Assembly (NCBI GenBank): GCA_021018995.1
Contig: CM037586.1
Span: 150,020,060-150,084,059, forward strand
Length of the DNA stretch: 64,000 bases
From: Chloranthus sessilifolius
Taxonomy: Eukaryota; Streptophyta; Magnoliopsida; Chloranthales; Chloranthaceae
Direction: 5' to 3'
Below the pieces are notes generated by a model. It was not told the origin of the DNA. It did not search any database and saw nothing but the letters and a program-made list of their open reading frames with translations. How positions within the stretch are numbered: position 1 is the stretch's first letter; every line of letters starts with the position of its first letter. This document shows positions 16,061 to 55,081 of the stretch, piece by piece. The position numbers were made by a program, and so were the translations under genes.

Positions 16061-16848
16061 AATTTTTTTAACTTATGGTTCGATTTGGATTCAAATTTAT
16101 ATACAAATTCGATTTAGATTCAATTCAAAGTTCACATTTTCTTCCTTCAAATTTAACTTCTGGGTTCGATTCAAAACTTGTAAAACACACATACGATGTT
16201 CAAGACTGAAATTCCTTACATGATTTTCGAAGGCTATATAAAAGGTTCAAAACAAAGATCATTTCTTGATTCGATACGTCAATAATTTTTAAAACAGCCA
16301 CTATGTCAAAGATTCGATAATTCAAAGCTTTCGAGCATTTCAAACAATCAAAATATTCAATCAAATATTTGAGTTCAAAGATATAAAGTTTTCATTGCAA
16401 GGATTTCAAATGCTAATTCATTTCAAAACAAAACTTATCATCTTTCATTCGATCATATCAAGCATCTATGAAATTAAATCAAAATGCAATTGCGTATGAA
16501 ATTTTCCCCACCTTAACCTCGAATCAGAAAAGCCAAGCAATGCCCTATCGATGGCTTTCCTCCCTCAATCTACATCACAAATATATGATGATGTATCAAT
16601 GATCAACACTAATCACTAATAACTTAGACTATTTAAGTGTTTTAAAAAAAAATCGAGTCAGAACGGGCAAGTTTGCGCCAACATAGAAATTGATGTAACC
16701 TTCCTCCTAAATTTGGACCTTTAAAAATTTAGATTCATAAGTTGTTCAAAACACACAAGTTGTGAGTTGTAAATCTCTTTGTTATATTTCCAACGCCTCA
16801 AGAATCGCATCAATCGGAGGTCGGAGTAGAAAGTTATGGTCAAAAAAC

Positions 16849-17345
16849 CGATTAATCGATTTTCAAAATCGATTAATCGATTTTCCAAAGTCGATTGATC
16901 GATTTTCTCTCGATTGATCGATTTTCAAAGAGCCAAAAATCTTATTCACTATTTGAGGCCAGTCGATTAATCGACCCAATTTTGATTAATCGAAATTCAA
17001 AAATCGATTAATCGATTTTACTCGATTAATCGGTTTCGTTTCTCGACAAAAATCAGAAATTTACCTAACTTATTACTAAATTTTGACCTTTAAAAAGATT
17101 GATTCACAAGTTTGTCAATTCATGAAAGTTGTAGGTCTTGCTGTCCTCTTTCCAACGCAATAAGAATCATATCAATCAGAATTCGGCACAAAACGTTATG
17201 GCCGAAATACTACGATAGTGTCAGTAAGCCCAGGCAAACTCGATTAATCGAAATTCTCTTCGATTAATCGATTTTGTGAAGTTCCTCTTGAATTTCTCTC
17301 TTGTAAAAAATCGATTAATCGAGTTTCAAAATCGATTAATCGATT
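16849..17345. repeat. Cluster of TCGATTAATCGA palindromes (family 2 LTR)
   Basis: At least a dozen copies or one-base variants of TCGATTAATCGA, mostly in groups with centres 18-22 bp apart, for example 16849-16920, 16962-17035, 17240-17270 and 17310-17345. Between the first two centres, positions 16854-16874 form an uninterrupted inverted repeat around a single C. Non-coding. Confidence 0.85.
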
Positions 17346-19644: not shown

Positions 19645-19785
19645 TAGGGTCGATTAATTGACCCAATAGGGTCGATGCATCGACCCTACAAAAGAGACTC
19701 AAAATCAGCTATAAAGTAGTTAATTCCGTGTCAGACTCTCCTTCTCCTCGATTAATCGACCAAAAGGGTCGATGCATCGACCCCC
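19645..19785. repeat. Two palindrome pairs, TCGATTAATCGA / TCGATGCATCGA (solo LTR)
   Basis: At 19649-19685 and 19748-19782, a TCGATTAAT(T/C)GA copy is followed about 21-22 bp later (centre to centre) by GGTCGATGCATCGACC. The intervening GACCC...GGGTC ends are complementary. This is the same arrangement as the pairs in the Athila-like element, with a different palindrome. Confidence 0.75.
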
Positions 19786-24182: not shown

Positions 24183-25720
24183 CTAGCTTTTAAGCCTAAG
24201 GTGAATTTTATCAAGCAACGACTTGCATAAAGAGTGAGACATTCGAGATGTAAAGAGCGGCAAACCCAAATATTTTATGGGAAAATTTTCTTCCCTAAAC
24301 ACCAATATATTTTTAAGTGAAGTGGGCGAGCGACATGCTTTACCAAATATCACAAGATACTTGGTATCATTTGCCAACAATCCAGAATCATCATGAAATT
24401 CCTTTAGCATATTCTTAATGCTAGAAGCCAAGGATTCCTCATCTGTGCTGAATAAAAGAACATCATCTGCGAAGAGGAAGTGAGAAACAATAGGACTACT
24501 AAGAAGAGATGGGCAATTAATCTGCCCCACCTCTACTTTTTGATCCATCATAGCAGAAAAAGCTTCCATAACAAGGGTAAAAATAATGGGAGACACGGGG
24601 TCACCTTGTCGAATACTGCATTCGCTCCTAAGTACCCATGAGGAGTGCCATTCACATGGATGGAGTAGGACGGTGTGGAAATGCACTCGCTCACCCATCC
24701 AATCCAAGTGCTGTCAAGCTTTAACTACTTAAGGATTTTCAGGATGAAATCCCACCGCACCCTATCATAAGCCTTTTTTAGATCAATTTTAAGACACAGA
24801 GTCTTTGGGCCATGCTTCAAGTGGAATTTCCGAACCATCTCATGAGCTAGAAGAATGTTCTCAGTAATTCTTCTACCCTAAACAAACGCCGATTAGTTAA
24901 GGCTCACCAACCGAGGGAGCACTCCCGCTAGCCTATTAGCCATAATTTTAATGATGATCTTATAAACAAAATCACACAGGGCTGTAGGTCTAACCTTATC
25001 AATATTTTTTGCATTATTTTCCTTAGGAATAAGCTTAATAAACGTAGCATTAAGAGATTTGAGCAATTTACTCCATTTGAAGAAATTGCTCACCGCCTTG
25101 CAGACATCCTTGCCGACAATGTCCCAGAAGCATTTGAAAAATTCAGCGGAGAACCCATATGGACCAGGAGCTTTGCCATTAGGAGAGGTAAAGACCACAT
25201 TCTTGATCTCATACATAGAGATTGGCAAAGAAAGCATAGAAATCTCATCCTCATTGAGAACCTGCTTGAAAAGAATAATTGAAATATTCGCATTGTTTGA
25301 CGACTTGAAGATATCTTTGTAATGATCAATTAAGAAGTTCCCAATAGAATCCGGGTCCGATAGTTGCTTCCCATCCGCATCTTCCAATTCAAAGATACTA
25401 TCACTGGCATACGGCTCTTGCACGAAGCATTGAAAAATGAGTATTCCTATCGGCATCATTAAGCCAATGAACTTTAGCCTTCTGCTTATAGAAACCCTCC
25501 TAAAGATCCAATTCCCGATTCAAAGAGGCCACAACGACCCTCTCTTCAATTGCCAGATTAAAATTCAGCGGGTCACTTTGTATAGAAGTTTGGATATGAG
25601 ACCAGGAGCACCTCGCATCAGCCACCCTAGTATGAATGGACCCAAATTTATCATTGTTCCATCGTCGAATCGTCGCTTCAACATTTCTCAGCTTATGATG
25701 AAGAAAGAACATATCGGTAT
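24183..25720 (-). pseudogene. L1-like LINE reverse transcriptase, decayed
   Basis: Minus-strand frames read, in order: the linker typical between endonuclease and RT (LRNVEATIRRWNNDKFGSI near 25690), then GKAPGPYGFSAEFFKCFWD, FIKLIPKEN and RPTALCDFVYKIIIKIMANR (24900-25200), RQGDPVSPIIFTLVMEAFS (24560-24610) and the catalytic box FLFADDVLLFS (about 24455-24487). FADD is the usual LINE form of YXDD, so the catalytic pair is still present, but frameshifts near 24710-24890 and 25460-25500 make it non-functional. The gene is cut at 25720 by the Athila-like element and resumes at 40531. Confidence 0.9.
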
Positions 25721-27097
25721 CGATCGATTTTAAAATATACCCTTGCAAGTGCACAAGATCTATCGTAGTATGGTAAAATCAAGCGTGTCGTACCCAGAGG
25801 GAAGCGTGAAATTTAATTAATCCTTAAAGAGATTTAAGACACCCAAGGAAGTACCAAGGGAGAGAAAACTGATTTACCACACAAGTCTAAATGCAATAAA
25901 AGAAAATCAATCTAAGCCAGAACAAATTATGATAAAGAAAAATGGCAGTTTATGAAAAAATCAAGGAGTTACCTAACCATCAATTCGTAACTTTTCTACC
26001 ATTTAACTCATAATTTCATCTTAAGTCAAAACACAATCATTTATTAGGAAAACAAATGAATCGAAAAGAACATGACTATTAATCCGACATACCCTATCTA
26101 AAAACTATGACTCAGCCTATCATTGTGGTATGAATCATGTAAAAAGCATAGCGTATATCAAAATATTAAGTCATGATAATGATAAATCAATCATTCTGCA
26201 GCCTAGATCGGCCTACAGGAACAGATCTAAATGAAGTGTCTCTTTTATGGTGGTTGATAACCACAATCATTGGCTGTAAACGAAGACTAGATAATATTCA
26301 ATTAAGCCCACACTTATGACAGAATGATTCAATGACAATACCATGAAATTGTAGAAGCAATAATAGAATAGTTACTTATCTACGATTCACTTCCTCCTTG
26401 AGCAATTGACTTTAGCCGCTCATCCTCGGTGTACAAGCTCGTTATAGATCCGAAGACATCGTCTTAATAATGCTATTTTATTTATCATAAAATTTCTCCT
26501 TATAATGCTTTTATTCCTAGGTACAATCTATGCTTTAAAAGTTGTAAAGAAGAAGAAAAATCAAATCCTACTATAATCTACTAAGAGAAGAAAAAGACCT
26601 AAAAACAAAAGAGAGAACTAACCAAGAACCAAAAAGCTAACCCCCTAATCCTAAGCCGTAGCTTTGTTTATATAGGAGTCGGCAATGACAATTTCTATAA
26701 TCGGCTTAATCGATTGAGAGTCCATTCTCAATCGATTGAGTTTAAATTGACTAAATTCGAATTTGAATTCGAATTTAAAATGGAGGGAAAAAGTTGTCCT
26801 TCTTGTCAATCGATTGAGAATTTGTTCTCAATCGATTGACACAGGTGTAAGATCTTCCTTCTTGTAATGGATGCTAGGCCAATCACTTGTTCTCACGGAT
26901 TTTGATGCTTCTGCTGACTTCTTGGTCCACTGTTCTTGTGTAACCTTTAATTATTTCCTTTTATGCTCTTTGAAGATCTAATGATCAGAAACATCTGCAA
27001 TCATTAAAACTATATAACAGCCATTAGATGCTTTTATTGGATAGCTAAATATAGGAATTAAGGTGTGAAATATAATCACATTTTGGCATCGTTTACA
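25721..27097 (-). repeat. 3' LTR of the Athila-like element
   Basis: About 1377 bp. On the plus strand it starts CGATCGATTTTAAAATATAC and ends GGCATCGTTTACA. It aligns along its full length with 39146-40530 with scattered substitutions and short indels, so insertion was fairly old but more recent than the surrounding LINE. Two palindrome pairs lie at 26706-26739 and 26806-26839. No protein-coding content. Confidence 0.9.
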
Positions 27098-27112
27098 CCC
27101 CCAAACCTACAC
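27098..27112 (-). promoter_or_regulatory. Polypurine tract of the Athila-like element
   Basis: On the minus strand GTAGGTTTGGGGG immediately precedes the 3' LTR start TGTAAACGATGCC. This is the expected position and composition of the plus-strand primer for reverse transcription. Similar GGTTTGGGGG tracts also occur at about 29068 and 29126. Confidence 0.75.
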
Positions 27113-29364
27113 TTTGCTAGTCCTCGAGCAAAGGGAGAATGAAAAATAACTAATAATTTAACAAATCAAATGAATGCCACTTTCGTAGGGAGCATGATTG
27201 CATTTAGCGTATTCAACAAGCCTTTAAACTCCTAGGTGATCCCTAGTGGAGGAGTTGTGTCTCCTGAAGGTTTTTAGTAAACATACCTACAAACTTCATA
27301 AACTAATAAACTCCATAATTGTAATCATGCCCTTAAATAGTCAAATGTCCGTGAATACTTTTAAGATGCTTCTGACCATGCTCATTTTATTAATGCTCAT
27401 TCAATTCAATTCATTATTTTTTCTAATAATTCATGATTCCTGCCCAGAGTGTCATGCTGTTATCACTGCTAAAATCCTTTCATCTGAGAATAAGTTTAAA
27501 TTAGAAACCTTTAGATCCCATGTCTAGACTCAATGCTCACCATAGGTATGCACTCAAAATGAAATTGCTCCAATGAGTGGTCTATATTTTCATCCATATG
27601 TGAGATTGAGTTGTAACACAAAGTAAAAAAATCTCACATGTTATAAGAAGAACGGTGCATCAAAGAATTAAAAGAAATCTCATGAGGAAAGATATTTGTA
27701 TCCTAAACATGCATATACCAAGCATCATAGACATTGTGCTATCACTCTCCACAAGACATTTACCATTCATGATTAGATCATAAAGGTCTTTTTTCAAGGT
27801 TATAACGGGTCTCGGGTAAAGGTTAAGAAAGAAAGGAAAAAATTGGATTCAAATTTCTCTGAGAAATCAGAAAAAGAAACACAATTGATTTTCTGATTTT
27901 TCACACTTTCTTTTTCAAAATTTTCAGAACCTTTTCCTTTTTATCACTTTTCTCCTTCTTTTCTTTTTCTTTTTAACACCACCATTACATATTTCCCTAC
28001 TTCTTGCACCAAGATGTATTTTTTTTTTCTCTCCCCTTTTATATTTTTCTGCCATATACTCCTTACAGTACTATTGCCATAACTCTCTATTTCCTTTCTT
28101 GCTCTCATCCCTAATTTCTCAGAGATTGAAGGATAAGGTTTTCTTTTTCAAACTTGTGTGGGGTATGATTGATATAGCTTAACAAGGAATATTTTGGGGC
28201 AAAATCTTTCAATTAAGGCTCAAAGGGGGTGCAATAAGATAAATCAATATATGGTGGGATATTTTGGGCACAAACGAGTCAACAATGGCCTTTGATCACC
28301 TCCTCTCATGATGGTAATGATGCCTCTTTGCCTTGAATTTTCACACAATGTGTTCCGGTGTAATGGTATAAAACATGCGAAATCGACAAATCAGGATAAA
28401 GTATATGAGATTTCAATAATTAAGCATGAAGTTTAAAAGATACTCTAAAATTTTTCAGCACTCATCAAAAACGAGGAAGAAGTTCCAAAGCTTACTAGGT
28501 TTTAGTCTTTTCTTTTGGATCTTAGAATTTCCAAGTTATAGACTTAATTCTCAGATTTTGGAATTAAAGCATGGTGATAGTGCAAGATTTCTGGTCATAG
28601 ATCATGAACATCATTATTCGACTTTAAAATTTATGAGCATTTGTAAAACAGTCATGGTGTGATGGAAATTTCTTTACAAATTTTTGGTCATTAATAATTC
28701 AAGGGCATGAGACCATAATTCAAAATTCATACGTTTTCTGACCATCAATCAATCGATTGACTTACTTGCCTCAATTGATTGACTGCTGCAAGCCTCCAAA
28801 AGGTTAAGTTTGACAATTCTGTTGTCAATCGATTGATTTTTGTGAATCAATCGATTGACAACCTTTATCCTGCAGAAAATTTCTGGATTGATGGCTATCA
28901 ATCGATCGATTGAGAAAATGGTCTCAATCGATTGACTGCTACTCTTTTAACTCCGAAAATAGCCCTTAAATATATATATATATATATATATATATTTATT
29001 TATTTTTTTTCTCAATGGTTTTTTTTTAATTATTTATTTTAAACATGAATCTAATACAAATACAATGCCCCCAAACCTGAATTTTCCAATGTCCTCATTG
29101 GATTGATTGTTGGAAAGTGTATGACACCCCCAAACCTGTTAAATGCAATCGAGGACCAAGGAGGCTGACCAGGTGAAAGGTATTGTGATTTGAACAATAA
29201 AATTGAAAAGAGAGACATTTAACTAAATTATTTTTATTGAAATTACAATTGACTACATGTAATGAAAAGAGAACAAAAACTTAATTAAAATAACCTAATC
29301 TAAACACTAAAAAGAAATAAATTGGAAAAAATTCAAAATCTAAATCCTAAACTAGTCCTACTCC
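27113..29364 (-). other. Non-coding 3' region of the Athila-like element
   Basis: AT-rich sequence with pyrimidine-rich patches (27895-28060), an (AT)n run (28971-28994) and three palindrome pairs (28749-28782, 28825-28858, 28902-28935). Two extra tracts reading GGTTTGGGGG on the minus strand lie at about 29068-29080 and 29123-29140. Open frames here (for example 27246-27527) have no recognisable motifs and are not called. Confidence 0.6.
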
Positions 29365-29830
29365 TTAGTCATCATTGGAGACCATCCCTTGCTTCGGCTT
29401 CGAGAATGTATAGCACCACTTCTCTCCAGTGATTTTGACCTCACTGAGTGCTGGTATGGGAGCTTGTGGTGGTGATATTGGTGGGGTAGGAGGTGGCGGT
29501 ACAAGTGGTGGTTGCGGATTCAATTCCGCCCATAAGTAGGTCGGAATCAAATTCGTTGATGGATTATTTTCGGCTTCAACGGAGCGAGCCCGGTGTGGAT
29601 GGTTATGTGGGAGCGAAGTCGGGTGTGGAGATTCCAAGTCAAGATCAATGACTTCTCGATTTGATAAATCGAGAAGTTGCTATGGCGGTTCTCAATGCAG
29701 TCTTTTCCTTGCTGGTTCCACCAATTTCTTGACTGCGAAACGGGTGCGGTATTGGATTGAAGACATGGCGCGAAGGTAGAGAAGATGGTTGATCTTCTTG
29801 ACTGAAGGAATAAGTTAAGAGCCTAACCTA
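29365..29830 (-). pseudogene. Proline-rich small ORF remnant in the Athila-like element
   Basis: A minus-strand frame of 90 codons (29637-29365) runs from a basic start to a proline-rich centre (PPLVPPPPTPPISPPQAP) and ends GEKWCYTFSKPKQGMVSNDD. The same frame appears to extend upstream to about 29830 but is broken by stops near 29670-29690. No family was recognised. Its position, between the extra ORF and the 3' LTR, suggests an element-encoded or captured sequence. A chance ORF is also possible. Confidence 0.35.
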
Positions 29831-30556
29831 AGGGGGGTTAATTAGAGGGGGATTTCCTAAAGTACGAGACTCTAAGGACTCCTTAAATCTTGATTTTCGG
29901 AATGAAAGAAGTAATTTTCCGGAAACGTGCATCAGTCAATCGATTGACTGTTAAGTGTCGATCGATTGACCCGTGATGTCAGAAGTGTTACTTGGTGCAT
30001 GACCAAAACTTTTCTTTTTAAGAAAGACTTTTCGATAACATGAAATCAAAGCAAATTCAGAAATTTTCTGTTCTTGACAGAAAGTATTTTCTGTTCACCA
30101 AAGTGTCAATCGATTGAAATTGCTTCCTCAATTGATTGACCCTACCCAATGCATACTGAGCCTAAATCGAAAAATCCTCAAGCATTGAATATTAATTTGA
30201 ATGTCATAGTTGATCGATTGAAAAAGGCTTTTCAATCGATCAACAGTTTTGAATTACTTTTCAAGAATTTGGGAATTAAAGTTCTCAATCGATTGAGATT
30301 TTTATCTCAATCGATTGACTGATGAACTTATGCACCAATCCGAGAATACACAGAAACATAACACACTAGAATACTCCAATTTTCATTCATTCAATCATAT
30401 GATTTGATTACAAAATATGATCCTATCAATAGAACCAGATTAACTAAAAATAAATCCTAACATCTAACCAAACTACAATTCGTCAGACACACAAAAGCAA
30501 AATAAATATGAACACACCAACAAACCAAACTAAAAACAAACACTAACAGAAACAAA

Positions 30557-30756
30557 CTAAACATCATCATCATCATCATCATCTTCAGGATCTCCCTCTC
30601 CATCCATCGCCGCTCTCGCTCTTGCGATGAAATCGTCGGCATGCCCCGAGAACGACTCTCGGGCAATCCGCATGAGAAGAGAACTCTGAAATCGGGACTG
30701 TCGATCCATACCTCCCAACGTTGTACTCAACCCATCCATCTGCGGCTTGAGGCGAG
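30557..30756 (-). pseudogene. Shifted-frame continuation of the extra Athila ORF
   Basis: After the stop at 30757-30759 the neighbouring frame reads on as MDGLSTTLGGMDRQSRFQSS and ends in an acidic tail, EGDPEDDDDDDDV, before a stop at 30557. The aspartates come from a (GAT)n repeat at about 30557-30583. The two frames overlap for about 25 codons, so a single indel near 30780-30850 would explain the split. The acidic tail is visible; its function is unknown. Confidence 0.5.
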
Positions 30757-31722
30757 CTACTGCTGCCTCGGCATTAAAATCGGGGACCTCTTCAGGACGA
30801 GGTCGTCGGATGTCGCCACGTTGGTGTTGTGCAGGGTTTGGTCGGGGAGGAGGAGGTATTTCATCAACATCGACTGGTGGTGGTATAACACGTAGAATGG
30901 CCTTGATGCTTTTGTCCCAAAATTCGTACCATAGTGATAGAATTGCATATCACCAATTTCTTTATCATCAAAGATCGGGCACCCGACTTGGTCCAATAGA
31001 TGCATGACATGGTGCGGGAAGTGCAAAAGGATGGCTTCCCGCTTACATGGTACTGTGGTGATGACGATGTCGCTGTGACATCTATACATTTCCTCAAGCA
31101 TCAGACCCGGCGCGTCGAACCAAGTATTTATGTGTGCCGCATTGAGTGCTAACACCCGATTCTTTGTCCTTTCACTCTTAGTACTATGCGGAAGCAAGTT
31201 GTTGGACATCACTATGTCCCAAAATAGAATATCCATTGGTAGGACCGCATGCTTAGTCGACAATCCCGACCCGTGCCTTCCCCCACACATATTGTTGATC
31301 ATTATTTCTTGACTGAGATCAACAATTGGATTGATATGGTGGTTCATTGGGCGAACCACATAGAAGTTAAATGCCTGTGCAAGATCAATGGTGTGCAGAT
31401 TATACGACCAGTTGTCGATACTCAAGCGAATGAAGGCAAAATCCGTCGGAGATAGTGGTGCCGATACCCACTCTATATTTTTGTAAAACAGCCGTATGAT
31501 ATGTAATGAGACATCAATAAGAGGAGGAGCAATCAGCATTTCCAAGTGCAGGGCCTCGATGAATTTGATTAAACGTGCCGCTTTGGCGATGCGATGATAC
31601 TTTGTGATATGGAAGAAATTTTCAGTTTGACATTGGCGGTTCACGTACTTATCGTTTGGGATGCGCATGGGGTTGTTATCAGGACGAGGTGGTCGGTAGA
31701 TCATTGGTCCAAGCGCCGCCAT
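30757..31722 (-). CDS. Extra ORF downstream of integrase, 321 codons, intact
   Basis: Uninterrupted 321-codon frame from ATG at 31722 to TAG at 30757, in an element whose gag-pol is full of stops. No transmembrane segment, signal peptide or zinc motif is visible, so it does not look like the env-like product known from the equivalent position of Athila elements. The middle part (residues about 150-240) has the look of the 'putative plant transposon protein' domain (PF20167) often associated with Athila elements: a helix-rich stretch with MDILFWDIVMSNNLLPHSTK followed by an ALNAAHINTWFD segment. That assignment is from memory of the family layout and is tentative. The coding frame probably continued to about 30557 before an indel. 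It is flanked on both sides by palindrome-rich non-coding DNA. Whether it is expressed cannot be seen. Confidence 0.55.
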   Translation of the reverse strand: MAALGPMIYRPPRPDNNPMRIPNDKYVNRQCQTENFFHITKYHRIAKAARLIKFIEALHLEMLIAPPLIDVSLHIIRLFYKNIEWVSAPLSPTDFAFIRLSIDNWSYNLHTIDLAQAFNFYVVRPMNHHINPIVDLSQEIMINNMCGGRHGSGLSTKHAVLPMDILFWDIVMSNNLLPHSTKSERTKNRVLALNAAHINTWFDAPGLMLEEMYRCHSDIVITTVPCKREAILLHFPHHVMHLLDQVGCPIFDDKEIGDMQFYHYGTNFGTKASRPFYVLYHHQSMLMKYLLLPDQTLHNTNVATSDDLVLKRSPILMPRQQ

Positions 31723-32459
31723 TTCGATTGTACAAGGAGAATGAAGGGATTATATGAAAAGCTTAGGTTGGAGGGAGATTGTGCAGAAGGGGACTACGGG
31801 TGTTCCCATTATATAATCTTCTTGTCAATTTGATTGAGTCATGGACTTCAATTGATTGAGACCGATTGACCTCCACCACGTTGTGTGATCTTTAATGAGT
31901 ATTTGGAACGTGGATGCGACATAGTGCAACCATTCATGCACCCTTAATGTCGATCGATTGACACAGGCCTTTTCATGAAAAGTTGCGATGTTTAAGTGCC
32001 TTGGGAACTGGCAGAGTTAAGTGGCATTTAGGTCAATCGATTGAGAGGTTAGTCTCAATTGATTGACATTGAAGTGCTCCTTGACTTAGCTACCATCAAA
32101 AAGACGTGTCGATTGATGCTCCGATTTTTGAAAACTTTCCATTAACTCGAGGTACTGTCAATCGATTGAGATATGAGTTTCAATCGATTAACATCATAGA
32201 TGTGTCGATTGGTCTAGCACACACATGATGAGGTGAGATGATGATGATTTGAGACATCAATCGATTGATAGTGAAATTATCAATCGATTGAGCATTGTAC
32301 AAGGTCAATCGATTGACTTTTCTCAAGTCAATCGATTGAGAAAAACTCTCTATTTCTATCACAACAATTAAAACACACTGGGTTGCCTCCCAGGAAGCGC
32401 TGAGTTTATATATCGACAACTCGACCGCTTCTTTTTCACATTGGTGGCTCAACGAGATC
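31723..32459 (-). other. Non-coding spacer between integrase and the extra ORF
   Basis: Contains five palindrome pairs (31825-31859, 32033-32066, 32158-32191, 32257-32291, 32305-32339) in about 515 bp, the densest part of the element. The minus strand around 32385-32405 reads GCGCTTCCTGGGAGGCAACC, similar to sequence often found just after pol in Athila elements. It may hold the promoter, leader or splice acceptor for the extra ORF, but nothing specific was recognised. Confidence 0.5.
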
Positions 32460-33679
32460 TGTTACTTTGACCATCATTTAGGGCTTCGGCTCAAACATTG
32501 GTTTAAGACGCTGACCATTTACTTTTAGGATTCGATCATCCTTCAAGTCTTTAATCTCCACGGCACCATATTCGGATGAGGAAATGACCTGAAAAGGTCC
32601 CTCCCATCTTGATCGCAACTTTCTCGGATGAAGTTTTAGCTTTGAATTGAACAGCCAAACTCTTTACCCTGGATGAAATTCCTTTCTGGATATTAACTTA
32701 TCGTGAAGCCTTTTGCATCTTTCTTTGTAAAGTCTAGCATTCTCATATATTTCATAACGTAACTCATCGAGTTCGTTTAGTTCCAGACGACGGTTCGATC
32801 CAGCAGATTGCATGTCAAAATTAAAACGTTTGATTGCCCAAAAGGCTTTGTGTTCAATTTCAACTGGGAGGTGGCAAGCCTTCCCAAACACAAGCCGAAA
32901 TGGAGACATCCCGATTGGTGCCTTGAATGTTGTCCTGTATGCCCAAAGAGCATTCGATAGACGAAGAGACCAATCCTTTATGTCTGTTCTGATAGTCTTT
33001 TCCAAAATTCGCTTGATTTCACGATTCGACACCTCAACTTGACCACTAGTTTGCGGATGATAAAGTGCTGTCACTTTGTGAGTAACCCCATATCTCTTCA
33101 TTAATGTTACAAACTGGCGATTGCAAAAGTGTGAACCACCATCACTGATGATAGCTCGGAGAATCCCGAATCGGTTGAACACATTCTCCTTAGTAACTTT
33201 ACTACCACTTTGTGGTCATTCGATCGAGTGGCTACTGCTTCCACCCATTTTGAGACATAGTCTACAACCACCAAAATATAGATGAACCCAAATGACGGGG
33301 GAAATGGTCCCATGAAATCAATTCCCCACACATCAAAAATTTCGACAACCAAAATTGGGTTTAATGGCATCATGTGTCGTCTAGAGATATTCCCTAACTT
33401 TTGGCAATTTACACACCTCTTGCAATAATTCATTGCATCACAGAAGATAGTGGGCCAGTAGAATCTAATTTATAAAATTTTTGATACCGTTTTTCATTCC
33501 CCAAAGTGACCTCCACAAGCCCCATTATGACAAAAATTCATCACGCTTAATTGTTCTTCTTCGGGCACACATCGTCGGATCACCTGATCAGAGCAAAATT
33601 TAAACAAGTCTGGTTCATCCCAAAAGTAGTGCTTCACTTGGGAGAAAAATAAATTTTTATCATTTTTGCCCCACTGCAA
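32460..33679 (-). pseudogene. Integrase region of the Athila-like element
   Basis: Minus-strand frames contain, in order: an H..H...C..C zinc-binding part (HNGACGGHFGE, then [13 protein letters not shown]), the catalytic core with [10 protein letters not shown] (first Asp), an [10 protein letters not shown] block (second Asp), and [20 protein letters not shown] (catalytic Glu region), then the C-terminal region with LRSRWEGPF and [10 protein letters not shown]. There is a frameshift near 33107-33182 between the first and second catalytic Asp, and a stop near 32664. The RT-RNase H frame lies upstream. Retroviral-type integrase joins the cDNA to chromosomal DNA. Confidence 0.9.
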
Positions 33680-33904
33680 TGGTATTCAGCCCGTAACCAA
33701 GTAGCTGATAATGTTAGCATACTAAGGAGTTCCATTTCGAGTCGTATGGATAACCATCAACTGCTCATCGGGAAAAGTGTCCCGAATAGATTCTGTAGAA
33801 GATATTGCCTCAGGAAGTATAGGAGACAGGTGGTCTGCAACTACGTTTTCAACTCCCTTTTTATCTCGTATTTCAAAATTGAGTTCTTACAGTAGCAGGA
33901 TCCA

Positions 33905-35236
33905 TTAGATCAATCTTGGCTTTGTGTCCTTCTTTGCCAACAAGTACTTAAGCGCGGAATGATCTGAAAAAAATATGATCTTCGATCCGAGCAAGTATGA
34001 CCGAAATTTGTCTAATGCATAAACTACAACCAATAATTCTTTCTCTGTGGTGGTGTAGTTTATTTGTGCATCTTTCAAAGTTTTACTTGCATAATAAATT
34101 ACATGAGATAATTTATTCACTCTTTGGCCTCGAACTGCTCCAATAGCATAGTCTGATGTGTCGCACATTAGTTCGAAGGAAACTGAGTAATCCGGAGGTT
34201 GGATTATGGGGGCGGTGGATAACAGTTCTTTCATTTTCAAAAATGCCTTCATGCAATCATCATCAAAGATGAAAGGGATGTCCTTCCCAAGCATAGTATA
34301 CAATGGTTTAGCCACTTTGCTAAAATCCTTGATAAATCCTCTGTAAAATCCTACATATCCCAGAAATGATCGAATTTGTCGAACACTCTTTGGTGGTGGC
34401 AAATTAGCAATTAAGTCGACTTTTGTCTTATCGAATTCAATTCCTTTCTTGGAAACGATATGCCCCAACACAATTCCTTGTTGAACCATAAAATGGCTCT
34501 TTTCCCAGCTTAAAATAAGATTGGATTCTACACAATGCTGTAATACTTGTGTCAAATGGTTAAGACACGTTTTAAAGGTCCTCCCAAAAATTGAGAAGTC
34601 ATCCATAAATACTTCGATGAATTTGTCAACCATATTCGAGAATATTGCTAACATACAATGTTGAAAAGTGGCCGGCGCATTGCAAAATCCGAACGACATT
34701 TTTCGATACACAAAGGTACCATAAGGGCAAGTAAATGCTATATTTTCTTAGTCTGATGAAAATACAAGCACTTGATTATATCCCGAGTAACCATCAAGAA
34801 AATAATAATATTCTTGTCCTGCCAACTTTTCTAGAATCTGATCAATAAATGTCAAGGGAAAATGGTCCTTTCTTGTGGTAGTGTTCAATTTCCGATAATT
34901 AATACAAAAACGCCATTCAGTGGTCTCGCGTGTAGGCATCAGTTCCCCTTCAGTAGTCTCTTTCACTATAATTTCTGACTTTTTGGGAACTACTTGAACT
35001 GGGCTTACCCATTCGCTATCAGAGATCGTATAGATGATTCCAACATTGAGTAACTTGATAATCTCTTTAAAAATGACTTCTTTCATGTTTGGATAAAGTA
35101 GTCTTTGTAGTTCCCTCGATGGTGTATTATTATCTTCCAAATGTATTTTATGCACACATACTGATGGATCAATCCCTTTAAGATCGGTTAAGGTCCATCC
35201 GATAGCTTCTTGGTGGTCCTTAAGTACTTTCAACAA
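33905..35236 (-). pseudogene. Reverse transcriptase-RNase H of the Athila-like element
   Basis: From 35236 on the minus strand: a pre-RT block (GIDPSVCVHKIHLEDN), RT fingers and palm (WVSPVQVVPKK, WRFCINYRKLN, HFPLTFIDQILEKLAG, YYFLDGYSGYNQ), the catalytic box FMDDFSIFG (about 34588-34611), then the connection (RSFLGYVGFYRGFIKDFS) and RNase H (CDTSDYAIGAV, TTEKELLVVVYALDKFRSYL, FFSDHSALKYLL). A single in-frame stop (34748-34750) separates the two long frames, and both are in the same reading frame. The frame closes at 33905. This is the best-preserved pol domain and allows confident Ty3/gypsy assignment. Confidence 0.95.
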
Positions 35237-35370
35237 TTCATGCTCTTACTTTTCTGATAATGTTGATAAAATTATTATCAAAAATATTTTCTGAGGTCCC
35301 AAGAAAGCATATTTAAGTGACTTAGGCAGTTGCTTTAATTCAACAGTTGGTGGGTGCCTGATTGATGGTG

Positions 35371-36230
35371 TCAACTCACCCTTTGCCTCAATGGGTAACG
35401 GTTCTCCTTAGTCTCAGTCTCACATGATTTATCATCTTGACTTGATGAATTCATCCTCTTTTCTTCTGATTGTTTCTTTTCAGTTCCTTTTTTCTCATAG
35501 ATGGCCAATAAAGCAGTTTCGAATGCTTCTTTGGTCAGCATTGATGGCAAAGCTTTATCCACTACTTCGTCCACCTGATCGATGTAGAAACAATCAACCT
35601 CATCCTTATTGGGGAAATGGTTCATTGCATGAAATATATTGAGCCTGACTTTCATGTTTCCAAAAGAAACATCTATGACTCTAGTTCGACAATTGATAGA
35701 GGCATTAGCGGTTGCGAGAAACGGACGTCCAAGAATGATTGGGACTTGATTTGTTGATTTAACAGGCGGTTTCATATCCAACATAACAAAGTCCACTGGA
35801 AAGACAAATTTATCTATTCCAACCAAAACATCTTCAATGATACCCCTAGGTCATTTTTCTGACTTATCAGCCAGTTGGAGTGTAACTGTCGTGGGTTTCA
35901 ATTCGCCTAGTCCTAATTTCTCATACCCTGAGTATGGGATCAGGTTGAAACTCGCTCCTAAATCCAGTAACGCCTTACCAATTGGTTGCCCACCTATGAC
36001 ACATGGAACAGTTGGAATTCCAGGTCCTTCAGTTTTTGTGATGCGTCCAATCGCAATATCGAACTGACTTGATTAGTCAGGAACACCTTCTTAGACACTT
36101 GAGCGCGTGCCTTTCTCTTACGGGTGCAGAGATCCTTAAAAAATTTAGCATACTCAGGAACTTGTTTGATTGTTTCAAGCAATGGAAGATTTATTTTTAC
36201 TTGCTTTAATGTTTCAAAGATTTCCTCCAT
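35371..36230 (-). pseudogene. Aspartic protease region of the Athila-like element
   Basis: The minus-strand frame starts with INLPLLETIKQVPEYAKFFK, a block that precedes protease in Athila polyproteins. It then contains the active-site segment ALLDLGASFNLIPY (about 35935-35980), in which the usual DTG/DSG is DLG, and a second conserved block IILGRPFLATANA. A stop near 35850 and a frame change near 36010-36070 break it. It is followed by an acidic, lysine-rich linker to RT (35371-35500). Retropepsins cleave the gag-pol polyprotein. Confidence 0.85.
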
Positions 36231-36394
36231 TTTTTACGGTCCTTTCCCCATTTTAGATGGAGGTGTCAGGCACTCAGGAAATGGTGCCTTTGGGATATAG
36301 GGATTGGATTCAAGTTCTGGTTCTCCTTCAGATTCTTGTTGGACAATTTAAGGTGACTCTTTCTCTTTTATTTTCTCTGGCTCTTTGTCTTTTG

Positions 36395-38035
36395 CTATTT
36401 TTTTTTCTTTTTTTTTTCCAATTCTATTGGCATTGCTACTTGATTATCAATCGCTCGCCCACTTCTCAATACAGTAACAGCTTTCAACTGTTGACTATTC
36501 GATGGCCCTTTATCAGGTGATGCTTGACCTCGAGGATTGTTGAGGGGTTGACTAGGAAGCCTCCCTTCCTCTTGTTGACTCAATTGATCGGTCAATTGGC
36601 TAATTTGGTCCATCATCATCTGTTGAAAAGTTTGCATGTTTTGCATAATATTCTCTTTCAAATCAGAATCTTTTAAAGCGGTGGCATGAGATTGATTGAA
36701 ATTCTGATTTTTCCTGTACTCAGAATTGGGATAATGATAATAAGAATTATGTTGAAAATTAGAATTCTGTTGTGGACGAAAGTTATATTGTCCACTCATT
36801 GTGTTAGATCTATACTATTGGTTCACCTATCCAGTTTGATTTGATCCTCCCCATCCTAAGTTGGGGTGATTTTTTCTTTCTGGATTGTATGTGTTGGAGT
36901 ATATGTTTCTACCCTGCCACTGATAAGATTGAGTCACATTCACCTGCCTTGAGGAGAAGGTTCATCAGGAAAGAATGACAGGGTAGTTGGACATTCATTG
37001 GCCATGTGTCCTGAGTGTTCACAAATTGAACAAGCAGTGGGGTTGATGGGAGTTTTAGCTTGCTTGGTTGCAAGTAACAACATGTTCACTTGTTTGGATA
37101 ACATATCAACTTTTGTTGATAGATCTAAAACATTATTGTTGACATCATAAAGTCCATCTCTTGTCAACACATGAGATTTAGTTGTCACATCCAGGTTGGC
37201 TCGCCCCAATGTCTCATTTTGTATTGAGGCATGATATAACTTCTCAAATAATGCCCATATTTCATTAGCATCTTTTGTGGCACATGATCTTCCATAAGAT
37301 GCATCAACCATGCGTCTCTCTTTTGGAATTAGTCAATTGTAAAAACTTTGGACCTGTTGCCACCTTAAAATTTGATGATTAAGACAACTTTTGATCAATT
37401 CCTTAAAGCGCTCCCAACATTCATGAAATGTTTCTGTAGGTTGTTGGGAGAAGAATTGAATCTTCTGACGCAACTCAATGGTTTTGGTTCTGGGAAAATA
37501 TTTTTTTAGGAATTGACGGTGTAGCTCTGCCCAACTCTAAATAGATTGTGATTCTAAGGAATAGAACTAAGTTTTTGCCTTATCCCTTAAAGAAAAGGGA
37601 AAAAGTTTTAACTTAGCTATCTCGTCGGTGACATTATGAACTCTGAATATTTTTACACACCTTAGTAAACTCATTTAAGTGAACATGTGGATTTTCATTG
37701 GATAATCCATGAAAAATTGGTAACATTTGAATCATTGCGGATTTGAATTCATAATGATTTCCTGGAATGGGGGCATGCATGAAACTATCCTAATCTTCGT
37801 AAAAACCAGGATCATTGTAATACTCCAATGTTCTTGGGTCCTCATCATCATTATTATTTTCATTATTTCTATTATTGATATTTTGATTGTTCCCATTCCT
37901 TTATTGTCTTTGATCTGTCATGATTTCAGTATGATGACACTGAATCCTTTGGGTTCTACGATTCTCTCTGCAAGACCTTTCGATTTCACGATTCAACGGT
38001 TGTAGATGTGGGTGATGAGATCGAGTAAAGCTCAT
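36395..38035 (-). pseudogene. gag of the Athila-like element
   Basis: A likely start ATG at 38035-38033 begins MSFTRSHHPHLQPLNREIER. After stops near 37910 and 37795 the frame carries a retrotransposon gag region (SAMIQMLPIFHGLSNENPH, then HLNEFTKVC). Later comes a CCHC zinc knuckle, CSICEHSGHMANEC (about 36990-37032), with all four ligands intact, and a Q/N-rich tail with the Athila-type signature SNTYNPERKNHPNLGWGG (about 36845-36900). Multiple stops and shifts remove function. Gag forms the particle and packages RNA. Confidence 0.85.
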
Positions 38036-39121
38036 GCTCCAACACCCAAGGCAAGGATTAATGAATCCACAATAAACCCACAAACTTCAGATTCAATCGA
38101 TTGAAGCAATGACCTCAATCGATTGAGACAAAACACACAATAATGTTCCTGCAGAGACTTATCAGTCAATCGATTGAGGTTCAAAAGTCTAGCTAGACAA
38201 CACAGAAATTACAGTTGAAATGGCAAACAATCAAAGGTCTGATCGATCGATTGACAAAGAAATGTCGATCAATTGATAGAATCGTAAAAATTTCTCAGTA
38301 AGCACGCTGGCAAATGATATCCCAGCCTCAATCGATTGACAATAAAATATCGATCGATTGACACTGAAGTCAGAATTCGAACATAATTTTTTTTTTTTTT
38401 CGAATTTAAAATTTTAAAATTCAAAATCAAAAATCAAAATTAAAATTGAAAAATAAGATTTAAAATTTGAATTTCAAAATTAAATTTTAAATTTTAAAAT
38501 TAAAAATCAAGATTTGAAATTCAAAATTTAAAATCAGAAGTTGAAAATCAAAATCAAGATTTGAACTTCAAAATTTAAATTTTAAAATCTAAAAGCAATC
38601 CGAAAAAATCCTACAAAATCTTACCTAGAAGAAGGAAGGAAAGAAAAGAGAATCCTATAGATCCTAAACCACAAATCCTAAAAATCCTCTACTTCTTAAA
38701 AGAACTTCACAAAATCCTACCAAAGAAAAGAAAATAAGGAAAAGAAGATTTTGCAAATATGAAAATCAAAATTCAATTTAAAAATGAAATGTCAAAATTT
38801 AAATTTCAAATTTCAAATTTCACAAATCGAAATTCCAAGTTTCACAATTTCAAAAATTTCATCAATCAAATTTTAAAGATCCATAACTCAAAATTTCAAA
38901 TTTCAAAAGTTCAAAATTCAAAATTCGGATTTTACTTTGTTAGAATTTTAGAAATTACAACTCAGAACAGTCGATCGATTGATACTTTCGAATCAATCGA
39001 TTGTCAAATCAGCCATCAATAATCACAACACTCAGTCAATCGATTGAAGAAGAGATCTCAATCGATTGACTGTCAAACAATCTACATAAATCTCTTTCCG
39101 AATTATCAAAATTTCACTGAT
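38036..39121 (-). other. 5' leader of the Athila-like element
   Basis: Non-coding, about 1.1 kb between primer site and gag. It contains five palindrome pairs (38093-38126, 38243-38276, 38328-38361, 38971-39004, 39036-39069), a single palindrome near 38165, and an A/T simple-sequence block (38390-38590 and 38755-38930) made of AAAATTTAAATTTC-like words that can fold on themselves. The leader is where packaging and translation signals would lie; none was recognised. Confidence 0.6.
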
Positions 39122-39145
39122 TCTCCGGCATCTGCGCCAAAAACT
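39122..39145 (-). promoter_or_regulatory. Primer-binding site, tRNA-Asp type, diverged
   Basis: On the minus strand the 5' LTR ends TTGATCA and is followed by AG and then TTTTTGGCGCAGATGCCGG. This matches the tRNA-Asp-complementary site TGGCGCCGTTGCCGG used by Athila and related elements, except for a few changes in the middle. Confidence 0.75.
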
Positions 39146-40530
39146 TGATCAATTTTAAAATATACCCTTGCAAGTGCACAAGATCTATCGTAGCACAGTG
39201 AAATCAGAGGTGTCGTACCATAGGGAAGCGTAAAATTTAATTAATCCTTAAAGAGATTTAAGACACCCAAGGAAGTACCAAGGGAGAGAAAATTGATTTA
39301 CCACATAATTACCACACAAGTCTAGATGCAATAAAAGAAAATCAATCTAAGCTAGAATAAATTATGATAAAGAAAAATGACAGTTTATGAAATGATCAAG
39401 GAGTTAGCTAACCATCGATTCATAACTTTTCTATCATTCAACTCATAATTTCTTTTTAAGTTAAAACACCATCATTTATTAGGAAAACAAGTGAATCGAG
39501 AAGAACATGACTATTGATCCGGCATATCCTATCTAAAAACTATGACTCAGCCTATCATTGCGATATGAATCATGTAAAAAATATAGTGTATCTCAAAACT
39601 TTAAGTCATGACAATAATAAATCAATAATTCTGCAGCCTAGATCGGCCTGCAGGAACAAATCTACATCAAGTGTCTCTTTTACGGTCGTTGATAACCACG
39701 ATCAATGGCTGTAAACGAAGACTCGATAATATTCAATTAAGCATACACTTATGACAGAATGATTTAATGACAATACCATAAAATTGTAGAAGAAATAATA
39801 GAACAGTTACTTATCTACGGTTTGCTTCCTCCTTGAGCAATTGACTTTAGCCGCTCATCCTTGGTGTACAAGCCCGTTGTAGATCCGAAGATATCGTCTT
39901 AATAATGCTCATTTATTTATCACAAAATTTCTCCTTACAATACTTTTGTTCCTAGGTACAATCTATGCTTTAAAAATTGTAAAGAAGAAGAAAAATCAAA
40001 ACCTATTACAATCTAATAAAAGAAGAAAAAGACCTAAAAACAAAAGAGAGAACCAACCAAGAGCTAAAAAGCCAATCCCCTAACCCTAAGCCGTAGCTTT
40101 ATTTATATAGGAGCTGGCAATGACAATTTCCATAATCGGCTCAATCGATTGAGAGTCCATTCTCAATCGATTGAGTCTAAACTGACTAAATTCGAATTTG
40201 AATTCGAATTTGCAGTGGAGGGAAAAAGCTGTCCTTCTTGTCAATCGATTGAGAATTTGTTTTCAATCGATTGACGCATAGGTGTAAGATCTTCCTTCTT
40301 TTAATGGATGCTAGGCCAATCACTTGTTTTCACAAATTTTGATGCTTCTACTGACCTCTTGGTCCACTGTTCTTGTGTAATCTTTAATTATTCCCTTCTA
40401 TGCTCTTTGAAGATCCAATGATAAGAAATATTTACAATCATTAAAACTATATAACAGCCATCAGATGTTTTCATCTGGTGGTTAAATGTAGGAATTAAGG
40501 TGTGAAATAGTCACATTTCGGCACCGATTA
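39146..40530 (-). repeat. 5' LTR of the Athila-like element
   Basis: About 1385 bp. The plus strand starts TGATCAATTTTAAAATATAC and ends near GGCACCGATTA, where the expected terminal ACA has mutated. Two palindrome pairs (40141-40174, 40241-40274) correspond to those in the other LTR, with the same or nearly the same spacers. Confidence 0.9.
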
Positions 40531-41726: not shown

Positions 41727-42997
41727 GTGATCGTTTAAAAGAGTGTAACCTTATAAGTGCACAAGCTAATGAAATACAACCAAGTATTACAGATGTCAAA
41801 CCCACATGGAGCAAATAATTTTACTAATTCGTACGAGCATTACTCCTACATTTTATCAAAGTTGGAAAGGTTTGTGATGGAGTTAATGCTACTTGATAAA
41901 ACACAAATAAAAAATTAAAAACTAATTAGATGATGCATAATTAACGAATGAAATAAAGATGAAGACAATATTCAACGATACGGCTACACCCTAGATTCGT
42001 AAATTCCTCCCCTTCAATTAAATCAAACTTAATTAACAATCATCTACCCTTGTTTCACTACAAGCAAAACAAATAAAAAAAAATATGATCTCGGATTCAT
42101 GCATACATTATCCTAGCTACTGCGATGCATTCATGAATCATATGAGTCATATACAAGGTATAACAGATCATGAATAAACAACCATGCATAACAAGTTAAT
42201 CAATCATATATAGGGCATCCTATATTAATCTACAAGATTAATCTAGGTTTTGAAATAATCCTTCTACGCTCACTGATCTACAAGATGAATGAGTATAGAT
42301 AGATTTAAAATAGAAACTTAGTATTCAATAAAAATAACTTAGCCCTATGATTTGAGATTGAAATGAAGAATGAAAAACTAAAGAGAAATCTTTTACCCAT
42401 CTAGGGTTCGCTTTCTCCTTGAATAAGAGATTTAGCCCCTCATCTCCGATCTATACAAAACGCACATATCCGATATCGTCAACATGATACGTCAATATTA
42501 ATCGTTGAATCGTTATGGAAAAGATTCGAAATCTTACGACTATTGAATAAGAAAAAGCTTAAGGAAAATAAAATGCTAAAAACTAATGAAGTAGATTAAA
42601 AGCTGATAAAAAAGAAACCCAAACCCTAATTCTTATTTTCCTTTATATTGGCCTTGGTTCGAAACTCTAAACATTTAGGATCGATCGATCGACTCCAAAT
42701 TTCGATCGAGTAATTCTAAGCAAAGTCTTTTGCAGATTTAAATCTCTTTAAGTCGATCGATTGATTTTTTGATTGTGAAGAGGTTCTTCTGACGAATTTA
42801 TTTTTTCTTAGTTGATCGATCGATTCTAAACATTCGATTGATCGATTTTGAACAGGTTCTTTTGTGGAATTCGTTCTTTGAGCTTCAATTGATCGAGTTT
42901 ACGTTCCCATGTTTGTTATTTTTTACGCTCTTTTATGCCATCGATTGCATCTAACGGTCAGACTTACCTGAAACCATCAAACCCCTACAAAAGCTGT
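41727..42997. mobile_element. Solo LTR inserted in the plus-strand LINE
   Basis: Begins TGATCGTTTAAAAGAGTGTA, with GTGCACAAGC soon after, matching the layout of the Athila-like LTR start (TGATC, then GTGCACAAGATC). No coding sequence. LINE homology stops just before it and resumes just after. Palindrome words (GATCGATCGATCG at 42682, GTTGATCGATCGATTC at 42813, TTCGATTGATCGATT at 42833) lie in it. Flanks share CAGG but an exact 5-bp duplication is not certain. Confidence 0.65.
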
Positions 42998-52408: not shown

Positions 52409-55081
52409 TGTAATAGCCCTGAAAAGTCGAACAAGAAACTAGACTGTTTCGATATGCGTGCCCGATACGAAAATCGAGACAGATTTAGAATTTTTATAAT
52501 TAATATTATTTGAAATAATATTAGCCTGTCGTTATGTGAGGTCAAGGGTGACTTTTCACGTGAATCCGAGTCTAGTAGAACCTTGGCGTGGCACGTTGCG
52601 TCGTAGCGACCATGTTCGCGCTTCACACCGAAGTCAAACCTTGGGATTAAGCTGAAATATCAGAGATATTTCAGTTTGGTAACTTATAAGGGAAGGAAGA
52701 GAAGAGACCAGAAAGATCTCCTGTCTTCTTCTTCCTCTTGTTCTTGAAGTAAACTCTGTAGCTAGGTTTTGCTTGGGTGAGTTCTTCGTGAAAAACAGGA
52801 TTAGCGATACCCGAGATTGTGAGTTGTCTGAGTTAGGGTATGTAGAGTTTAATGAGACGAGCTCAAGTATAGTCTATGAGTGTGTGAGACCTCAGCGTGC
52901 TGAATCAGAGCCAAAGGTCTCCTTATCGAAAGCATACCGTCGATAAAGCCCAAGTCCAGATCCAAAACCCTCTTTCGGATTGATTTGCCAAAACCCCGAA
53001 AGGGCCCGACTAAAGGTGTGTTTATGCTTTTAAATATGGGCAAATGAGAGCCCTTATGTATGTGTGTATGTGTATTAATGGTTGCAAGAAACCATTAATG
53101 AAGATGGGTCAAAATAGGGAAGAGTAGATGACCTCCATTAATGACAGAGTTTCTGTCATTATTGATCGATCAATGACAAAGATTGATCGATCAATACTTG
53201 GGTGATCGATCAATGAAAGCCATTGATCGATTAATCTGTATAAGACAAAGAAGTGAACAAAAGCCTTGAAAATTCTGGAAGTTTAATGCACGAAGGGTAT
53301 TGATCGATCAATTTGTGAATTGATCAATCAATCCTGGGTATTGATCGATCAACAAGAAAATGATCGATCGATGACTGGTGGTGATCGATCAATGAAGGCA
53401 TTGATCGATCACTGTTGTGTATTAATCGATCAATAGAGGCATTGATTGATCAATCTGTATAAATATTAAATGTGAACAGAAGGTGGGAAATTTGAATTTT
53501 TGGCTATTGATCGATCAACGAAGGTATTGATCGATCAACATGATGCATTGATCGATCAACTGAGCAAGTAATCAATCAATTTTCCTTTGTGGATTGTGAA
53601 GAGGAAAGGAGCTATTGATCGATCAATAGAGGTATTGATCGATCAATGATGAGAGGTGATCGATCAATAGGGGCTATTGATCGATCAATTTACTCTATTG
53701 CTTGTTAAAGAGAAGAGAGAATTGATCGATCAATGGGGTCATTGATCGATCAATAAGAGTGGTGATCGATCAATCACCCCTGTTTCTGCCTGTTTTGAAT
53801 TATATAAAGTAAACCTCACTGGACATTGTACCAGTTTATGTTCTGGCATCCCTGACACTTAGAATACTATGTTTAGGGTCTAGGATCAGACCATGACTTT
53901 CTGAAAGGCTTTAGAATTGCTTCGAAAGAAGTCTAACCTGAGGTAGGGGAATTCCATTGAAATTGCATTTATTTTTGATTTCATGGTTCCAAAGCTTCTG
54001 TATTTGATTGCATAGTTTGATTTTATCGTCCAGTCATGTTTAGCATATGTGTGACAACTCTATTATAAATCTGACACCTGTCATCTGTTATCCGATTTCC
54101 GTTAAGTATGATACACCTGCATGTAATTTAAGGTTTAATACTCTGACGAATCCCACCGACTCGGCGGTATAACCGTTTCTGGCACACTCGTGCATCTGCT
54201 TGAAAATCCTCTGTACAATTGCACTCCGTAGTTTAGGCATTGTTGCGTTTCCTGAAATTGTTCATGTGAACGACGATGGTCGGGATTACCCATCGGACCA
54301 AATCTTGCTACCACATGCTATACTCACAGGAGTTATTTAAGTTTACTATGCTAAGTCATTATACACGGTATGCATCACATTAGGTCAATTCCAATAAGAT
54401 CTGTCTGTTTGATAAATTCTGTATATTAAAAACACTGTTGGCATCTGTTCAGTTCTGTTCATATCTTCTGTAATCATGTTTTACAATTAAGATGCAACTT
54501 TAAATGATATTCTTCTACCGAGCTAAGATGTAGCTCACCCTGCTTTCCATTAACTTTATAGGTTCTAAGGATGTAGCTCCCTACATCGAGAGCGACCCAG
54601 ATTACCAGCCTGACCCAGAGGCTGAGGCCGAGGACGAGGAGACGGACATCCAAGCAGACGAGTTCTACCCGTAGCCTGGGTACTTGAGTCCGATGTTTTG
54701 TATTTTGATATTCCAGATTATTGTGTGCCTGATGGCTACCGTCTGTATATATATTACTATAGATATTGTATTCATGTACTTTTATACATTCTATTGGAAC
54801 CACTATCAGGAACCATTATTTGGGTGATGGATGTCCATCACCAATGGTTCTTCTTGGTTCCTTTTTGGGAATGTATATTCTTTTGGTATATAGAAATACA
54901 TGTTTTATTTATTGTATTCATTTATTTTTAAACGCCTTATGTGATAACTCGACCTACCACTGCTGGACAGTGTGCTTGATTTTCGCTGTACGAGCAGACA
55001 CTTTATGATTTGTCCTGGGGATCATCCAGAGTATGATCCTGATGGCACGAATTTTCGGGCGCGGAAATCCGGGCTGTCACA
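52409..55081 (-). mobile_element. Family 2 LTR (probably solo), minus strand
   Basis: The plus strand starts TGTAATAGCCCTGAAAAG and ends GAAATCCGGGCTGTCACA. The reverse complement therefore starts TGTGACAGCCCGGATTTC, as in the element at 14754. An exact 5-bp duplication TAGAT lies at 52404-52408 and 55082-55086. No gag-pol content in 2673 bp. Both family 2 copies have a GGGTGAGCT motif (on their own sense strand), here near 54530-54540 and in the other copy near 15195. A dense palindrome cluster lies at 53150-53775. Confidence 0.8.
53150..53775. repeat. Cluster of TTGATCGATCAA palindromes (family 2 LTR)
   Basis: More than twenty copies or one-base variants of ATTGATCGATCAAT within about 620 bp. 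Adjacent copies in a pair are mostly 19-21 bp apart centre to centre. Examples of complementary spacers: CAATAGAGGTATTG near 53624, CAATGGGGTCATTG near 53730, CAATGAAGGCATTG near 53390. Non-coding. Confidence 0.9.

Follow-up and report, generated by a model that had tools for sequence, protein, structure and literature searches.

Paired palindromes of fixed geometry in an Athila-like retrotransposon of Chloranthus sessilifolius as possible cis-regulatory binding sites

The window analyzed here is a stretch of 64,000 nucleotides from Chloranthus sessilifolius (assembly GCA_021018995.1, contig CM037586.1, positions 150,020,060 to 150,084,059). It contains, on the minus strand, a long terminal repeat (LTR) retrotransposon in which the 12-bp palindrome TCAATCGATTGA recurs in pairs of nearly constant spacing. 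The 5' LTR (39147..40522) and the 3' LTR (25722..27085) pair with each other, have approximate ends, and differ by 8.8% over 1361 aligned positions (Kimura two-parameter distance, K2P, 0.095). Between them lies gag-pol in several broken frames (32667..37332, minus strand), in which reverse transcriptase (RT) and RNase H are above the Pfam cut-offs and a zinc knuckle and pieces of integrase are below them. An open reading frame (ORF) of 321 amino acids (30757..31722, minus strand) is env-like by position only; its match to Transposase_32 scores 13.7 bits against a cut-off of 45, and none of 520 candidate relatives was significant. A small broken ORF region without a Pfam match follows it at 29368-29822 on the same strand.

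The order on the minus strand is a weak gag zinc knuckle, RT, RNase H, integrase pieces, and then the 321-aa ORF. RT and RNase H before integrase, with matches to gypsy-type RT_RNaseH models, is the Ty3/gypsy order. The arrangement of gag, RT, RNase H and integrase, with an extra ORF between these and the 3' LTR, is that of the Athila lineage, an order that is possible in other gypsy lineages as well. We take the element to be Athila-like and use that name provisionally.

All 27 exact copies of TCAATCGATTGA in the window are confined to this element, between 26728 and 40274, against a mean of 0.01 in shuffled sequence. At up to two mismatches the element has 46 non-overlapping matches, of which three (29095, 31422 and 33216) look like chance. 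Both LTRs and the leader contain palindromes, as do the stretches on either side of the extra ORF (the one separating it from pol and the one after it); gag-pol has no exact copy and a single match with two mismatches, at 33216. With at most two mismatches per arm, the centers of 18 pairs are 22 bp apart and those of two pairs are 23 bp apart. A further pair (31825-31837 and 31848-31859) also has a 10-bp spacer, with one inserted base in its left arm. This brings the total to 21 pairs, 19 with a spacer of 10 bp and two with a spacer of 11 bp, which reproduces the count given in the first-pass annotation and confirms its observation of fixed-geometry pairs.

The 3' LTR repeats the pairs at 40141 and 40241 of the 5' LTR as 26706 and 26806, which leaves 19 independent pairs. 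When 42 sites (from one LTR only, with the three chance-like matches kept in) were scattered over the non-coding blocks in 20,000 draws, 0.25 neighbors at 22 bp were expected and no draw exceeded 4. The number seen was 15, a figure from which the handling of overlaps removes one true pair (28902). The single sites at 31950 and 38166 have no recognizable partner, and 15 gaps between units gave no clear signal of helical phasing beyond the pair.

Each LTR carries the same two pairs, at 26706..26839 in the 3' LTR and 40141..40274 in the 5' LTR, and in both a TATA box (at 26674 and 40109, respectively, minus strand) lies 32 bp from the nearest site. Between pol and the env-like ORF, an array (31825..32339) is made up of the pairs 31825/31848, 32033, 32158, 32257 and 32305 and the single site 31950; 32257 and 32305 are the two pairs with 11-bp spacers. 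Next to this array is TATATAAT (31808..31815, minus strand), a candidate internal promoter that lies 93 bp before the ATG (31722) of the env-like ORF and 33 bp from a palindrome. An adjoining TATA box was not found for the three-pair array at 28749..28935 (28749, 28825 and 28902), the four-pair array at 29936..30318 (29936, 30106, 30210 and 30285), the leader array before gag at 38093..38361 (pairs 38093, 38243 and 38328 and the single site 38166), or the leader array near the 5' LTR at 38971..39069 (pairs 38971 and 39036). The two leader arrays are separated by a low-complexity stretch (38403-38930) in which AAATTT- and TTGAAATT-like words abound. In the pair at 30210, the arms are exact reverse complements of each other and neither arm is itself still a perfect palindrome.

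Four other clusters of palindromes are present in the window. Cluster A (16848..17343) is built of TCGATTAATCGA with a within-group pitch of 18-22 bp. Cluster B (19650..19780) has two pairs of TCGATTAATYGA with TCGATGCATCGA at a pitch of 21-22 bp, and a weak TATTTAAAG 42 bp off on the minus strand. Cluster C (53162..53773) contains 23 sites like TTGATCGATCAA at up to three mismatches, with a within-group pitch of 19-21 bp; a TATA box at 53801 (plus strand) is 28 bp from the nearest of them. It lies inside a solo LTR (52409..55081, plus strand) with TG...CA ends and the 5-bp duplication TAGAT on both sides. Its sites fall into groups of 4, 8, 4, 4 and 3, and in three groups the third site starts with GTG instead of TTG. 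Cluster D (42681..42845) consists of TCGATCGATCGA-type palindromes with one pair at 22 bp, and a TATAAAG at 42647 (minus strand) is 34 bp off.

A block of about 140 bp (AAGTTGTAGATCT...TTTCCAACG...AAGAATCA...AAAGTTATGGCC) is found in four places, at 16707-16848, 17076-17210, 19831-19966 (minus strand) and about 47230-47380 (minus strand). In clusters A and B it stands beside palindrome pairs, and at 47 kb it occurs without perfect palindromes of at least 12 bp. To judge from this shared sequence, clusters A and B may be one family, and for that reason the families besides the Athila-like one number two to four. The clusters have different CGAT palindromes, and their geometry resembles that of the Athila-like element, with a pitch of 18-22 bp in A, B and C compared to 22-23 bp. 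For repeated 12-bp near-palindromes of any word, the window holds 46 pairs spaced at 18-24 bp, a total that takes in the Athila-like ones, compared to an average of 0.0 in 30 dinucleotide shuffles. Of 11 arrays, with the LTR array counted once, four have a TATA box 28-34 bp beyond their end; a random position has a TATA box 20-45 bp away, on either strand, with a chance of 0.07.

Outside the window, five stretches of prokaryote genomes each have one exact TCAATCGATTGA pair. In the viral contigs neither TCAATCGATTGA nor TTGATCGATCAA occurred as an exact pair, one stretch had TCGATTAATCGA, and no relative of the RT piece of the element was found. Pieces of an element resembling a long interspersed nuclear element (LINE) surround the Athila-like element; the left piece (24186-25519) has a reverse transcriptase match, and the right piece (40555-40965), without a Pfam match, was judged LINE-like by eye.

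The middle six spacer bases have an identity of 0.286, compared to 0.272 by chance (17 units), and because they are unrelated the pairs are not copies of one 34-bp repeat. Tandem copying of such a repeat is rejected on this ground, though entire 10-bp spacers resemble one another slightly more than random ones do (0.322 versus 0.273, 95% range 0.243-0.311, 16 units). The surplus likeness is located at the spacer ends. The proposal that the spacer has a constant length and a free sequence therefore holds for its length and for its unrelated middle, and fails for the spacer as a whole, as the end bases covary and whole spacers are slightly alike.

From the divergence of the LTRs, a 12-bp site is expected to have 0.57 mismatches and 56% of sites to be perfect. 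The 39 arms have 0.46 mismatches per site and 62% are perfect, a comparison flattered by the fact that sites with more than two mismatches would escape detection. The arms look to have been nearly perfect when the element inserted. Variants of the palindrome within 25722-40510 are uneven between the strands: A3>G is seen eight times and its mirror, T10>C, once, and overall the count is 14 versus 4, in a tally that omits six overlapping or chance-like matches. Dimers of homeodomain-leucine zipper (HD-Zip) proteins bind CAATNATTG, which is 9 bp long; the word here has CAATCGATTG, one base longer, and is not of that type.

These features suggest, with about an even chance of being right, that the retrotransposon carries the pairs as cis-regulatory binding sites, comparable in kind to the palindromic repeated motifs (RMs) of Sireviruses. 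A putative dimeric DNA-binding protein, from the host or encoded by the element, would read each CG-centered palindrome. Two such dimers, about two helical turns apart and on the same face of the helix, would bind together. Through the arrays that adjoin a TATA box, the element would be transcribed from the LTR and its env-like ORF from an internal promoter. The sequence and spacing of the sites, the lack of exact copies in gag-pol, the TATA distances and the similar geometry of the other clusters are observed; the protein, its cooperative binding and the promoter activity are inferred. The first-pass annotation had proposed a protein bound to one face of the DNA, and this gains some support from the similar pitch in the other clusters and the similar TATA distance in 4 of the 11 arrays. 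Its reading, partly supported, is changed here because of the other CGAT clusters, the arrays adjacent to TATA boxes and the covarying spacer ends; it had missed the first two, as well as the Sirevirus motifs as published relatives. Nothing pointed to the recombination-type site that it also offered, at which no test was aimed.

The closest known system is that of the Sirevirus RMs (Bousios et al. 2010, PMC2829016). RMs are palindromic, are present in 8-32 copies in each of 13 elements, and have a word that varies by element. They lie upstream of the TATA box of the LTR, and linker copies in ENV-bearing elements are mostly upstream of ENV; the classic Ty1/copia elements compared there lack them. 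Shared with the element described here are the short repeated palindrome, the LTR copies before the TATA box and the copies before env. The minimum of at least eight copies per element is exceeded by the 27 exact copies and the 46 at up to two mismatches, a few of which are probably chance. Both LTRs have their cluster 32 bp upstream of the TATA box, and the copies at 31825-32339 precede the ORF that begins at 31722, which is env-like by its position alone. The word of the tobacco element Tnd-1 is ACAATCGATTGT, which has CAATCGATTG in common with the word here (PMC2829016). According to the same passages a CGG-CCG core is found in 12 of the 13 Sireviruses, Tnd-1 being the exception, and TCAATCGATTGA is without that core as well.

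Sireviruses are Ty1/copia elements, whereas the element here is Ty3/gypsy. Because its gene order is of the gypsy type, its palindromes are not filed as a Sirevirus motif but only as the same kind of motif. In addition, the passages of PMC2829016 describe no fixed spacing of pairs, which is about 22 bp here, and additional copies in the Athila-like element occupy the leader and the stretch beyond the env-like ORF, unlike the RMs as those passages present them. Palindrome clusters in the LTRs of maize Sireviruses have been linked to small RNAs (Bousios 2016, as reported in passages of PMC10760457); they share LTR clusters with a predicted structure, and differ in word and superfamily. The short interrupted repeat cassettes of Arabidopsis, in the passages of PMC10342631, share short direct repeats with unrelated spacers, and some are in ATHILA. 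They are defined by layout, however, the repeat is free of palindromes in about 57% of them, and those passages give no fixed pitch.

Literature searches by the palindrome words returned no retrotransposon title and one plant chloroplast genome, from a body of text that left most subscription papers outside. For CAATCGATTG with LTR, PMC2829016 was the sole plant-retroelement title among the matches listed. Palindromic repeated motifs with gypsy, LTR and TATA box returned PMC2829016 alone, from which absence from print is not claimed, and the Athila and Tekay literature on palindromes gave no other title on such motifs. The passages of PMC11963269, PMC11302176 and PMC6911290 contain no such palindrome motifs.

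Several observations weigh against the pairs being regulatory sites of the Sirevirus kind. No TATA box lies within 150 bp on the side examined in 7 of the 11 arrays, cluster B having only TATTTAAAG at 42 bp, and the TATA pattern was widened to TATAAAG after cluster D had been seen. The 33 bp between the TATATAAT box and the array is measured to site 31848, but the degenerate partner of that site is nearer, at 10 bp. The pitch of cluster A is loose (18-22 bp). The strand skew of the variants (14 versus 4) is unexpected for a symmetric dimer site, and two independent protein sites would not be expected to give covarying spacer ends. The nearest word belongs to the Sirevirus Tnd-1, which is without a conserved TATA box, ENV or linker copies in the passages of PMC2829016. 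The passages also state that spliced mRNA or stop-codon suppression is known or predicted for plant ENV genes, an internal promoter being a hypothesis only. For Athila elements they cite splice acceptors predicted for ENV, which makes an internal promoter unnecessary.

The main rival, in our judgment rather unlikely, is that each pair forms one stem-loop, with a stem of about 14-17 bp and a loop of 6 nt, that acts in RNA or in single-stranded cDNA, for example in packaging, dimer contact or stability. On this view, stem and loop together make up the 22-bp pitch. A small hairpin had been proposed in the first pass, and the covarying flanks lend it some support. The first and last spacer bases are Watson-Crick pairs in 11 of 18 units, compared to 4.8 expected, and all four types of base pair occur. 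Over the two inner spacer positions, 24 of 38 cells are Watson-Crick versus 14.0 expected (19 units; p 0.0006, or 0.0004 when shuffled within regions), at positions that were picked after the spacers had been viewed and without correction for multiple tests. Changes on both sides number 23 cells, compared to 9.5 in shuffles, none of 500 of which was as high (16 units with perfect 22-bp spacing). Two controls were not significant in the Athila-like element (18 units each): an extended self-palindrome was not supported by the flank test, and a direct-repeat origin of the pairs was rejected as no such likeness of flanks was found. Single units also fold strongly (z -5.8 to -9.5 in the 8 folded).

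The remaining evidence is less favorable to a stem-loop. At the three outer flank positions the excess is weak (26 of 57 versus 19.2; p 0.04, or 0.06 within regions), and positions k=1-2 alone give p 0.18. Both arms are changed in 9 of 38 units (19 Athila-like, 11 of cluster C in one register, 6 of A and 2 of B). Exact complementarity, which counts in favor of a stem, is present in two of these nine (30210 and 53381) and absent from the other seven (38243, 38971, 31825, 53202, 53422, 16891 and 19650). Folding is more stable for the plus strand, which is antisense to the element, than for the other (-19.6 versus -9.9 kcal/mol), a result that disfavors a plain function in genomic RNA. As a guide to the strand of the hairpin, G-U pairs in the arms favor the plus strand, and those in the flanks are undecided. 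In cluster C, one register shows only a trend toward a hairpin (p 0.07) and the other shows the opposite (p 0.99), and the flanks of clusters A and B together fit a self-palindrome (p 0.003) better than a hairpin (p 0.04). Furthermore, a stem does not require that its arms be palindromic, and the two single sites are partnerless.

The pairs could be a double protein site and a hairpin at once. A broader proposal, which we put forward as speculative and unlikely to hold in full, is that several repeat families in this plant follow one regulatory grammar. CGAT palindromes would recur roughly every two helical turns, the closest one some 30 bp away from a TATA box, and from family to family the word would vary while the geometry stays. 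The Athila-like pairs would also be kept as stem-loops, the same sequence being a double protein site at the DNA level and folding into a hairpin as RNA or cDNA.

It is quite improbable that the palindromes are targets of an anti-silencing protein encoded by the element, like the VANC motifs of VANDAL transposons, with the env-like ORF or the ORF region at 29368-29822 as its possible source. As described in the passages of PMC5735166 and PMC10398659, VANC targets (such as those of VANC21 and VANC6) are likewise a dense short motif in the non-coding parts of one family, between or before ORFs, that differs between related families; the other clusters here likewise have other words with similar geometry. 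The VANC motif YAGTATTAY is, however, non-palindromic and of a single orientation in those passages, and belongs to DNA transposons, the Mu-like VANDALs, for which the recognizing protein is known. Here such a protein is putative, and the env-like ORF has a sub-threshold Pfam match and no significant relative.

Template-switch repair could by itself yield complementary flanks, and very unlikely as it is, neutral growth, in which short tandem or inverted duplication and templated quasi-palindrome repair spread a functionless word, would also account for the slight likeness of whole spacers and for arrays between pol and the 3' LTR, where tandem arrays are described as common in the passages on plant Retand elements, but it is at odds with spacer middles at chance identity beside arms that were nearly perfect at insertion and predicts neither the absence of exact copies from gag-pol nor the TATA spacing.

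If the pairs are indeed cis-regulatory binding sites, the regulatory design known from Sireviruses of the Ty1/copia superfamily would also be used by a gypsy element. Their fixed geometry would predict a reader that binds as paired dimers, and their position before the env-like ORF would predict an internal promoter for that gene. The 34-bp pair would then be a short and concrete probe for the protein that activates such elements or keeps them unsilenced.

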